Shown: positions 1-3,260 of the stretch, in pieces
How positions within the stretch are numbered: the first letter of the stretch is position 1
How the letters are laid out: every line of letters starts with the position of its first letter
Assembly (NCBI GenBank): GCA_902756345.1
Contig: CACVQR010000012.1
Coordinates: forward strand, 1-64,000
DNA: 64,000 nucleotides
DNA from: Fibrobacter succinogenes
Lineage (GTDB): Bacteria > Fibrobacterota > Fibrobacteria > Fibrobacterales > Fibrobacteraceae
Direction: 5' to 3'
Position numbers and translations under genes: made by a program
Notes under the pieces: generated by a model
What the model was told of the DNA's origin: nothing
Database searches by the model: none
Seen by the model: the letters and a program-made list of their open reading frames with translations, nothing else

Positions 1-2322
1 GTGTTCCATCACGGACGGGATGTAAACGTGTTCGCCGTCAGAGAGGGCGTCGGCTTCGCATTCGAGAGCGTTGTGGAGGAAGCGGTCGATGAGGAGCGGA
101 CGATCCGGGGTCACGCCGACAGCCTTCGCCACGTATTCGCGGAGCATGTTCTCGTCGTAGATGACTTCCATGCCGCGGCCGCCAAGCACGAAGCTCGGGC
201 GGATCATCACCGGGTAGCCGCCAATCTGCTTGACGCAAGCGAGGGCTTCGTCGATGTTGGTGGCCATGCCGCTTTCCGGCATCGGGATGCCAAGCTGGTC
301 CATCATCTTGCGGAACAGGTCGCGGTCTTCGGCGATGTCGATGGAGTCGATGCTCGTACCGAGAATCTTCACGCCTTCGTCGGAGAGTGCGCGGGCGATG
401 TTCAGCGGAGTCTGTCCACCGAACTGCACAATCACGCCGGCCGGCTTTTCCTTATGATAGATCTGCAGAACGTCTTCGAGGCAGACCGGTTCGAAGTACA
501 GCTTGTCGCTGGTATCGTAGTCGGTAGAGACCGTTTCAGGGTTGCAGTTGACCATGATGGTTTCGTAACCCATTTCGCGGAGAGCCATGGCAGCGTGGCA
601 GCAGCAGTAGTCGAATTCGATACCCTGGCCGATTCTGTTCGGGCCACCGCCGAGAATCATGATCTTCTTCGGGTTGGTGGAAGCGGTAGATTCGTCCTTG
701 CAGTTGTAGGTGCTGTAGTAGTAGTACTGGTCCTTCACGCCGCTCACCGGCACTGCGCACCAGCCTTCGACCACGCCGAGTTCGGTACGCTTCTTGCGCA
801 CGTCCTTTTCGCGGATGCCGAGGATCTTGGCAATATACTTGTCGCTGAAGCCGTCCTTCTTGGCCTTGATGAGGAGTTCGTCAGAAGGCAGGCGGCCCGG
901 AGTCTTGAGCATTTCTTCTTCGAGTTCCACGAGTTCGCGCATCTGCTGCACGAAGTAAGCCTTTTCGTAGGTGGCGGCGAAGATTTCTTCGTCGGTAGCA
1001 CCCTTGCGGATGGCTTCGTACATCTGGAAGTGGCGTTCGGAGCTCGGGGTCTTGAGCATTTCGAGGAGTTCTTCCTTGCTCTTCTTGTTGAAGTCCTTCG
1101 CAAAGCCGAGGCCGGAGCGACCGTTTTCGAGGCCGCGGATAGCCTTCTGGAGGGTTTCCTTGTAGGTCTTGCCGATAGCCATGACTTCGCCCACAGCCTT
1201 CATCTGGGTGCCGAGGCAGTCATCCACACCGCGGAACTTTTCGAATGCCCAACGTGCGAACTTGAGCACCACGTAGTCACCGCTCGGGGTGTACTTTTCG
1301 AGGCTTCCATCGCGCCAGTACGGAATCTGGTCAAGGGTAAGGCCTGCGGCGAGCTTTGCAGAAATGAGGGCGATCGGGAAGCCGGTAGCCTTGGAAGCAA
1401 GGGCAGAGGAGCGAGAGGTACGCGGGTTGATTTCGATAATCACCACGCGGCCGGTCTTCGGGTCGTGAGCGAACTGCACGTTGGTACCGCCAATCACGCC
1501 GATGGATTCCACAATCTTGAAGGCCTTTTCCTTCAGTTCTTCTTCGAGCTTCTTGTCGATGGTGAGGAACGGGGCTGCGCAGAAGGAGTCGCCGGTATGC
1601 ACGCCCACCGGGTCGATGTTTTCGATGAAGCAGATGGCAATCATCTGGTTCTTGGAATCGCGAACCACTTCGACTTCGAGTTCTTCCCAACCGAGGATAG
1701 ATTCTTCGATGAGGCACTGGTGCGTCATGGAGAGTTCAAGACCGTTAGAGCAAATAGTGCGGAGTTCTTCCACGTTGTAGCAGAAACCGCCGCCTGCACC
1801 GCCCATGGTGTATGCCGGGCGAACCACCACCGGGTAGCCGATTTCGGCCACGATCTTTTCGGCTTCTTCCACAGAGTGGCAAATGCCGGAGCGCGGAGTA
1901 TCGATGCCGAGCTTCTGCATGGTTTCCTTGAAGATTTCACGGTCTTCGCCACGTTCGATAGCGTCGAGGTTCACACCGATGACCTTCACGCCGTACTTGT
2001 CCAGCACGCCAGCCTTGCTCAAAGCAGAGGCGAGGTTCAAACCAGTCTGGCCGCCCAAGTTCGGGAGGAGGGCCTGCGGGCGTTCCTTTTCGATAATCTG
2101 GGTGAGGCGGGCGACGTTCAGCGGTTCGATGTAGGTGGCATCGGCCATGACCGGGTCGGTCATGATGGTAGCCGGGTTGGAGTTCACGAGCACAATCTTG
2201 TAACCCTGTTCGCGCAGGGCCTTGCAAGCCTGGGTGCCGGAATAGTCGAATTCGCAAGCCTGACCGATCACGATCGGGCCAGAACCGATGATAAGGACTT
2301 TGTCGATGCCTTCAATCTTCAT
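1..2322 (-). CDS. carB: carbamoyl-phosphate synthase large subunit (C-terminus beyond window)
   Basis: Makes carbamoyl phosphate from bicarbonate, glutamine-derived ammonia and 2 ATP for pyrimidine and arginine synthesis. The reverse strand reads from MKIEGIDKVLIIGSGPIVIG through 774 residues without a stop; full CarB is about 1,070, so the last part of the second ATP-grasp half and the allosteric domain lie outside. The first ATP-grasp half (GGTNVQFAHDP, EINPRTSRSSALASKATG), the oligomerisation region and the start of the second half (KIMILGGGPNRIGQGIEFDY) are seen. Start ATG at 2322 follows GGAGATAAAAA. carA is not visible in the window. A long antisense reading frame covers the gene but is a codon-bias shadow. 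Expression is probably controlled by the leader at 2340-2555. Confidence 0.97.
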   Translation of the reverse strand, partial: MKIEGIDKVLIIGSGPIVIGQACEFDYSGTQACKALREQGYKIVLVNSNPATIMTDPVMADATYIEPLNVARLTQIIEKERPQALLPNLGGQTGLNLASALSKAGVLDKYGVKVIGVNLDAIERGEDREIFKETMQKLGIDTPRSGICHSVEEAEKIVAEIGYPVVVRPAYTMGGAGGGFCYNVEELRTICSNGLELSMTHQCLIEESILGWEELEVEVVRDSKNQMIAICFIENIDPVGVHTGDSFCAAPFLTIDKKLEEELKEKAFKIVESIGVIGGTNVQFAHDPKTGRVVIIEINPRTSRSSALASKATGFPIALISAKLAAGLTLDQIPYWRDGSLEKYTPSGDYVVLKFARWAFEKFRGVDDCLGTQMKAVGEVMAIGKTYKETLQKAIRGLENGRSGLGFAKDFNKKSKEELLEMLKTPSSERHFQMYEAIRKGATDEEIFAATYEKAYFVQQMRELVELEEEMLKTPGRLPSDELLIKAKKDGFSDKYIAKILGIREKDVRKKRTELGVVEGWCAVPVSGVKDQYYYYSTYNCKDESTASTNPKKIMILGGGPNRIGQGIEFDYCCCHAAMALREMGYETIMVNCNPETVSTDYDTSDKLYFEPVCLEDVLQIYHKEKPAGVIVQFGGQTPLNIARALSDEGVKILGTSIDSIDIAEDRDLFRKMMDQLGIPMPESGMATNIDEALACVKQIGGYPVMIRPSFVLGGRGMEVIYDENMLREYVAKAVGVTPDRPLLIDRFLHNALECEADALSDGEHVYIPSVMEH

Positions 2323-2339
2323 TTTTTATCTCCGTTTGT

Positions 2340-2489
2340 CTAATTATTAAATCCTAAAAAAAATGCTGAACTAAAAAGTCCAGCAAAATCAGAAAAACTA
2401 TTAACCTTGGAAAAACCCGTTGCAGTTGCACAGTGGATTGCGCAGGTCTCGCAGCTCTGGGGCTTCGACATTGCAAGATTTTTGTTCAT
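2340..2489 (-). CDS. putative 49-residue leader peptide upstream of carB
   Basis: An open frame starts at ATG 2489 behind AGGAAG and stops at TAG 2340, 17 nt before the carB ATG. The peptide begins MNKNLAMSKPQSCETC and ends GLFSSAFFLGFNN. It has no recognised family. Its second half is encoded by T-rich RNA (runs TTTTTCC, TTTTTCTG, TTTTGC), and its 3' end runs through an intrinsic terminator hairpin (2356-2385). A leader cistron that translates through a U-rich pause tract and across a terminator is the arrangement of E. coli pyrL-pyrBI. The role is inferred; the frame, the Shine-Dalgarno-like site and the terminator are seen. Confidence 0.55.
   Translation of the reverse strand: MNKNLAMSKPQSCETCAIHCATATGFSKVNSFSDFAGLFSSAFFLGFNN
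2356..2385 (-). terminator. intrinsic terminator / attenuator before carB
   Basis: On the minus strand TGCTGGACT, loop TTTT, AGTTCAGCA form a 9-bp stem with one G-U pair, followed by eight T. It lies 34 nt upstream of the carB ATG, inside the leader reading frame and downstream of the leader promoter, so it must be read through to express carB. This position makes it an attenuator rather than a gene-end terminator. Confidence 0.85.
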
Positions 2490-2526
2490 CTTCCTGTCTA
2501 ATTCGCTCAAGGTTTAAACTTGCGCA

Positions 2527-2555
2527 AATATAGACAAAAAATGTAACGCTTTCAA
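2527..2555 (-). promoter_or_regulatory. carB leader promoter
   Basis: TTGAAA, 17-nt spacer, TATATT on the minus strand. The same bases read TTG-N20-TATATTTG, the Bacteroidota-type consensus. The start site should fall near 2520, about 30 nt before the leader-peptide ATG. Confidence 0.7.
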
Positions 2556-2588
2556 GGCAAAACGCAAAAAATGAAAAATAATTTCGGC

Positions 2589-2762
2589 TTACGGTTCACC
2601 AGCAGGATCAACCGCCGGTTCTTCCGGTTCTCCGCTAGCGCAATCCGCAGCGTTCGGGTCCACGGTGCAGTGGTCATCCGATTGGGTACTTGCAGTGCCG
2701 CAGCCAGCAAAAGCGAGCGCAACAGCCAAAACAGTGGCGAAACCAACAAACTTGCGAACCAT
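2589..2762 (-). CDS. small putative lipoprotein
   Basis: A 57-residue protein with an N-terminal signal MVRKFVGFATVLAVALAFAG followed by Cys21, then a short acidic, proline-rich mature part (CTVDPNAADC, EPEEPAVDPAGEP). The start at 2762 is chosen because AGGAGCGAAAATT precedes it; an in-frame upstream ATG at 2795 has no comparable site. Likely exported and lipid-anchored; the residue at -3 of the lipobox is Phe, which is weaker than the usual Leu. No function recognised. Confidence 0.6.
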   Translation of the reverse strand: MVRKFVGFATVLAVALAFAGCGTASTQSDDHCTVDPNAADCASGEPEEPAVDPAGEP

Positions 2763-2812
2763 AATTTTCGCTCCTAAACATTTGATGTTCAACAAGTTAG
2801 AAGATAGTAATT

Positions 2813-2903
2813 TCAGCGTTCAGAGTTTAGCGTTCGGAGTTTTATATCGCGGCAAAGCCGCCTTACCAAGCAATTCTTAATTCAAAATTCTGAATTCCGA
2901 ACT
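2813..2903. repeat. short-word intergenic repeat with GGCGGC hairpin
   Basis: Contains degenerate words such as TTCAGAGTTTAGCGTTCGGAG and ATTCTGAATTCCGAACT around the hairpin CGCGGCAAAGCCGCC. A very similar arrangement occurs at 61800-61893 (AAGGCGGCTACGCCGCG plus TCTGAATTCCGAACTC). The two copies lie in unrelated intergenic gaps. Confidence 0.6.
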
Positions 2904-2932
2904 AAAAAAAGCACCCGGGAAATCCCGAGTGC
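2904..2932 (-). terminator. intrinsic terminator of the HU gene
   Basis: Minus strand GCACTCGGG-ATTT-CCCGGGTGC (9-bp stem with one wobble) followed by seven T, 25 nt after the HU stop codon. Confidence 0.92.
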
Positions 2933-2957
2933 AAAAGCAAATCGCTTTAGAGCAAAA

Positions 2958-3260
2958 TTACTTCTTAGCAACCTTGGTCTTCTTAGCGGTTTCCTTGAGG
3001 CCAGCGCCGACCTTGAAGGAAACAGTCTTGGAAGCCTTGATCTTGATCGTAGCACCAGTCTGCGGGTTACGGCCGGTACGTGCAGCACGTTCCTTAACAG
3101 TGAAGGTACCGAAACCGATCAGCTGAACGAGACCGTCCTTCTTGATACCAGCGGTGATACCGTCGAGAACGGCGTCAACAGCGCGGCCAGCGGCAGCCTT
3201 GGATTCAATGCCAGCTTCCTTGTTAGCGAGGATGGCGTCGATGAGATCTTGCTTATTCAT
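2958..3260 (-). CDS. hup: HU-family DNA-binding protein
   Basis: Nucleoid protein that bends and compacts DNA as a dimer. The 100-residue sequence begins MNKQDLIDAILANKEAGIES and contains the HU/IHF signature region GFGTFTVKERAARTGRNPQTG (residues about 49-69) and the arm sequence. The C-terminus is extended by a lysine-rich tail (KETAKKTKVAKK) beyond the usual 90 residues. Start ATG 3260 follows CAAGGAGTTAATAAA. It is monocistronic, with a -10 at 3301-3306 and a terminator at 2904-2932. Third-position bias is strong, as expected for an abundant protein. Confidence 0.96.
   Translation of the reverse strand: MNKQDLIDAILANKEAGIESKAAAGRAVDAVLDGITAGIKKDGLVQLIGFGTFTVKERAARTGRNPQTGATIKIKASKTVSFKVGAGLKETAKKTKVAKK

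Follow-up and report, generated by a model that had tools for sequence, protein, structure and literature searches.

The closest described system is the pyrL leader of the E. coli pyrBI operon, where low UTP slows RNA polymerase on the U-rich template, the coupled ribosome prevents formation of the terminator, and pyrBI is expressed (PMC10135430, PMC5021804). For carA of P. aeruginosa, pyrimidine control possibly by attenuation has been reported (PMC4997734), and a carA RNA motif, an extended imperfect hairpin, comes from the genus Polynucleobacter and from metagenomes (PMC8632094). As a yardstick, the E. coli pyrL leader was measured in the same way as the leaders studied here: its 44-codon frame extends over the terminator, with 90 nt between the ATG and the terminator and U-rich bins ahead of it.

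The window (the whole analyzed stretch of 64,000 nucleotides of Fibrobacter succinogenes DNA) contains a leader upstream of carB, for which the preliminary description had listed a promoter, a 49-codon frame, a hairpin and a 9-bp terminator followed by eight T; these coordinates and counts are correct by sequence. The features, from the promoter to the gene, are the following.

2525..2555, minus strand: promoter, with TTG at 2555-2553, a 20-nt spacer and TATATTTG at 2532-2525 (from sequence)
2490..2495, minus strand: AGGAAG, a purine run, weakly Shine-Dalgarno-like, abutting the leader ATG (from sequence)
2340..2489, minus strand: leader ORF, ATG at 2489-2487, 49 codons, stop TAG at 2342-2340, MNKNLAMSKPQSCETCAIHCATATGFSKVNSFSDFAGLFSSAFFLGFNN, extending past the terminator stem
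2427..2444, minus strand: mid-ORF hairpin TGCGCA-AUCCAC-UGUGCA, a candidate pause hairpin, at a similar position in most relatives
2386..2416, minus strand: U-rich stretch between the mid-ORF hairpin and the terminator (U content and codon bias in 19 relatives)
2356..2385, minus strand: intrinsic terminator, 9-bp stem and 4-nt loop at 2385-2364, T8 at 2363-2356 (from sequence and pairing in relatives)
1..2322, minus strand: carB (second copy, carB2), ATG at 2322, truncated at the contig start after its first 774 codons (profile matches)

The -10 box and GCGCAAGTTTAA following it are conserved in nearly all relatives. The purine run proposed as the Shine-Dalgarno site of the leader frame is present, but it adjoins the leader ATG directly, and hence the site is weak, poorly spaced and non-canonical. 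The leader region is flanked by carB and a small lipoprotein-like ORF, both on the minus strand. The latter (window 2589-2795, minus) has an Asp/Pro/Glu-rich end and directly precedes the carB promoter; a comparable reading is also seen upstream at the locus L197.

The orthologous set comprises the leaders of 19 Fibrobacter genomes having carB2; these are related genomes, and the counts obtained on them are not counts of independent events. In all 19 the leader frame is open across the terminator and ends at least 13 nt beyond its stem. The distance from the ATG to the terminator takes nine values between 93 and 120 nt, each of them a multiple of three, indels in the aligned leaders are whole codons, and there are no in-frame stops in 827 codons, compared to 34 and 63 in the other two frames. 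Given the triplet indels and the zero in-frame stops, the leader is under coding constraint. Further Fibrobacter loci, F. intestinalis included, also have a frame over the terminator; at one of them (L155) it overlaps the terminator in a different phase, and thus the overlap, rather than the residues, seems to matter. Inserts of the relatives fall between the terminator and carB, which indicates that only the frame and the terminator are constrained. Repeat-like inserts (e.g. GTCATCCTGAGC...GAAGGATC) are seen in L005, L009, L010, L011, L018 and L020, with the leader and the terminator intact. Hence, in the comparison across Fibrobacter called for by the preliminary description, the frame and the terminator are conserved, and the U tracts are so as a codon-level bias; close relatives that had lost the frame and kept the terminator were looked for, and both are kept in 19/19.

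A strict terminator scan of 878 kb of the source genome (sampled stretches, about 26% of the genome) yielded 84 terminators upstream of an ORF, nine of which share sequence with a short ATG ORF. Bare overlap of an ORF and a terminator in one genome is therefore unremarkable, with a chance of about 9%, and it is only conservation that makes the case for the leader. Among those nine, just two, the leader of the window and the one at carA described below, join a promoter-like box immediately upstream, an ATG-to-terminator distance of more than 100 nt and a U-rich run ahead of the terminator. The leader-terminator arrangement before carB is confirmed as real, its conservation being overwhelming.

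All eight core pairs of the terminator stem form in 19/19 relatives, with two-sided (compensatory) changes at three of them. The energy of the terminator in the relatives ranges from -11.2 to -15.2 kcal/mol, and the energy of the consensus alignment is better than in all 60 column shuffles. In most relatives the end of the mid hairpin mostly lies 39-48 nt ahead of the terminator, while its sequence differs among them (variants TGCGCA..TGCGCA, GCGACAT..ATGTCGC, GGCAC..GTGCC). Its energy is just slightly better than that of codon-order shuffles (mean z -0.72), which is not significant by energy alone; the recurrence of its position, together with this modest energy support, makes the mid hairpin a likely, rather than proven, genuine element.

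In the 19 relatives the fraction of U near the terminator is 0.37-0.75 per 6-nt bin, compared to about 0.2 upstream. The bias is seen in the choice of codons. At the final 14 codon positions ahead of the terminator, 188 codons end in T, while 71.2 are expected from the codon usage of the window's genes (z 16.7; z values here treat kin sequences as independent and thus overstate significance). Phe is encoded there by TTT and TTC in the ratio 52:8, compared to 48:91 in genes, and against the codon usage of carB itself U-ending codons number 136 with 41.6 expected. No such bias is seen in the earlier, 5' part of these frames (80 T-ending codons, 71.5 expected), and this contrast within one frame between the last 14 and the earlier codons does not depend on the assumption of independence. 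Selection for the U-tracts acts on the choice of codons.

A second leader precedes the native operon carA-pyrG-carB (G000:C5), its ATG frame beginning a few nucleotides after TATATTTTG. The order of elements is ATG frame, hairpin, U-rich stretch, and a terminator inside the frame, this terminator being unrelated to that of carB2. The frame is in phase with the terminator in 14/14 scored genomes and has no in-frame stops in 738 codons, compared to 30 and 21 in the other frames; U-ending codons are again in excess (139 observed, 55.2 expected). Two unrelated leaders of one logic within one genome point to convergence. In one clade (L037 9600-9440 minus, relatives L080-L096) the start codon of the carA leader is enclosed in a hairpin (CCGAT..ATCGG) that is conserved and might control translation of the leader.

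The pyrR-pyrB-pyrC, pyrE, pyrD and pyrF units of Fibrobacter were examined and lack such a leader. The device thus marks two carbamoyl-phosphate synthase units rather than the whole pathway and, since the genome's other pyrimidine units are devoid of it, does not constitute a general UTP regulon. The pyrR-pyrB-pyrC operon (G000:C10 41405-44163) has a short 5' UTR with no attenuator. Ahead of carA in other families and orders of Fibrobacterota no terminator or leader was found.

The preliminary description, in proposing control of carB, was made without awareness that the window holds a second carB, which was probably acquired by transfer. The encoded protein matches the CarB profiles NF003671 (1141.7 bits) and TIGR01369 (1059.9 bits), both over the cut-off; its identity is about 60% with the native CarB of Fibrobacterota, compared to 88-91% with that of rumen Treponema. 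A quick tree built from the first 250 residues places this protein beside Treponema, apart from the native copies (SH-aLRT support 83-93 inside, 100 for the split). The genome has two carB genes, only one carA having been found; the native carB stands in the overlapping order carA-pyrG-carB (L037 3219-9337), while carB2 stands alone. Transfer of the gene between phyla is the likely explanation for carB2.

In about 28 Treponema carB loci (L156-L201) a leader frame starts right after the -10 box, and its stop mostly lies 5-8 nt before a terminator, so that a ribosome at the stop would still cover the start of the terminator stem. The leader peptide commonly reads MKTE..ILK..KTVHTIFIL. The frames contain no in-frame stops in 691 codons (76 and 55 in the other frames), and in their last eight positions U-ending codons number 153, with 101.9 expected. 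In several of these leaders the 5' end, including the ATG, is able to pair with the stretch preceding the U-tract. No sequence beyond short stretches is visibly shared by the Treponema and Fibrobacter leaders, and no such leader was seen at the examined carB genes of Kiritimatiellae, Lentisphaerae and Verrucomicrobia. It may tentatively be suggested, with the balance of probability somewhat against it, that UTP-sensing ribosome-coupled attenuators evolved several times at the carbamoyl-phosphate synthase genes of bacteria living in the gut (the two Fibrobacter leaders and the Treponema form), and that the carB2 device may have moved between phyla with the gene.

Judging by its sequence and conservation, the carB2 leader is most probably a pyrBI-type, translation-coupled transcription attenuator, with UTP as the likely signal. 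Transcription would start just after TATATTTG, and a ribosome would begin the 49-codon leader. At low UTP, the mid-ORF hairpin and the U-rich stretch would slow RNA polymerase down, allowing the ribosome to catch up; translation of the frame over the terminator would then block folding of the stem, and transcription would continue into carB. With ample UTP, the polymerase would outrun the ribosome and halt at the terminator. The proposal that carB is controlled by the pyrBI principle gains support from what is directly observed, namely a frame in phase with the terminator, the pairing of the terminator stem, the U bias and the recurrence at carA-pyrG-carB. From these we infer the coupling of ribosome and RNA polymerase as the switch, the pause of the polymerase, and UTP as the signal.

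The signal of the same device could instead be something other than UTP, such as ribosome availability or the translation rate, the U-rich stretch serving just as a pause site or as unstructured RNA. The restriction of the device to two carbamoyl-phosphate synthase units, with its absence from the other pyrimidine genes tested, is consistent with this possibility, but the strong preference for U-ending codons at particular positions of two unrelated leaders, and again in Treponema, as well as the fact that one of the two U-biased leaders drives carA-pyrG-carB, make it rather unlikely.

Since carbamoyl phosphate also feeds arginine synthesis, and a leader peptide with arginine and pyrimidine control has been reported for carA of P. 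aeruginosa (PMC4997734), an amino-acid attenuator of the trp/his type should be considered, in which a stalled ribosome, e.g. one sensing arginine, switches between an antiterminator and the terminator. The leaders contain no run of Arg codons, however, most of them having none or one, and it is U that is conserved, not a repeated codon. Pairing of the left arm of the terminator with the leader does not exceed chance (mean z +0.37), that is, the antiterminator pairing is absent; moreover, as the frame passes the terminator, stalling upstream would favor termination, which is the wrong sign. An arginine-sensing attenuator is therefore improbable.

Equally low is the probability that PyrR with bound UMP or UTP binds the leader RNA and favors the terminator, the ORF being incidental. 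PyrR, encoded within the pyrR-pyrB-pyrC operon, scores above the cut-off in 16/16 Fibrobacter genomes tested, and pyrimidine sensing could thus run another way. Yet an Rfam scan of positions 2000-3000 at a lax threshold (E<=5) yielded no family above chance and no PyrR element, no hairpin sequence is conserved, and PyrR control has no need of the triplet-level constraint on the frame.

That the leader is just a gene for a small protein, equipped with a terminator of its own and situated before carB by chance, is hardly credible, for although a short ATG ORF and a terminator overlap by chance in about 9% of cases in the source genome, here no relative has lost the overlap, the frame, the overlap and the U content are conserved while the protein sequence of the peptide is not, and no protein family is matched.

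For the pyrBI-type reading, the open literature, outside which most subscription journals lie, yielded nothing on leader attenuators of Fibrobacter or Treponema, nor does a survey of premature terminators from 2010 describe one in its main text. Attenuators of the pyrBI kind are thus apparently undescribed in Fibrobacterota and Spirochaetota, in agreement with the earlier suggestion that this control was new for the former phylum. Transcription-translation coupling has been little studied in either phylum. Control by coupling of the ribosome and RNA polymerase, best known at E. coli pyrBI, would extend to Fibrobacterota and, apparently, to Spirochaetota; the leaders could serve as natural reporters for transcription-translation coupling there, and may control pyrimidine supply in major fiber-degrading gut bacteria.

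Compared with the known systems, the leader shares with the carA RNA motif (PMC8632094) the position of a candidate structured RNA ahead of a carbamoyl-phosphate synthase gene, carA in that case, but the window has no Rfam match. As in the PyrR-controlled attenuators of Firmicutes, a terminator precedes pyrimidine genes and PyrR is encoded in the source genome, whereas the window has a translated frame instead of a PyrR-binding element or an antiterminator. The carA leader of P. aeruginosa is similar in that attenuation with a leader peptide has been proposed before a carbamoyl-phosphate synthase gene (PMC4997734), but arginine control is described there too, and the likeness is one of description.

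The preliminary description held that E. coli pyrBI uses exactly such a leader. The anatomy indeed matches, but the start is weakly spaced, and the leader peptides match no Pfam family at E<=5, the PyrL family included, so that membership in PyrL by descent is unsupported. A single NCBIfam match of the leader peptides, far below the cut-off, is ascribed to chance. The window leader differs from pyrL in preceding carB, in belonging to another phylum, in the weak spacing of its Shine-Dalgarno sequence and in having no detectable peptide or RNA homology to it, and the UTP response known for pyrBI is a prediction here. The two are alike in the translated frame of comparable length (44 codons in pyrL, 49 in the window) over an intrinsic terminator close to a pyrimidine gene, in the U-rich stretch and in the lack of an antiterminator, and present evidence supports the view that the carB2 leader would work like that of pyrBI.
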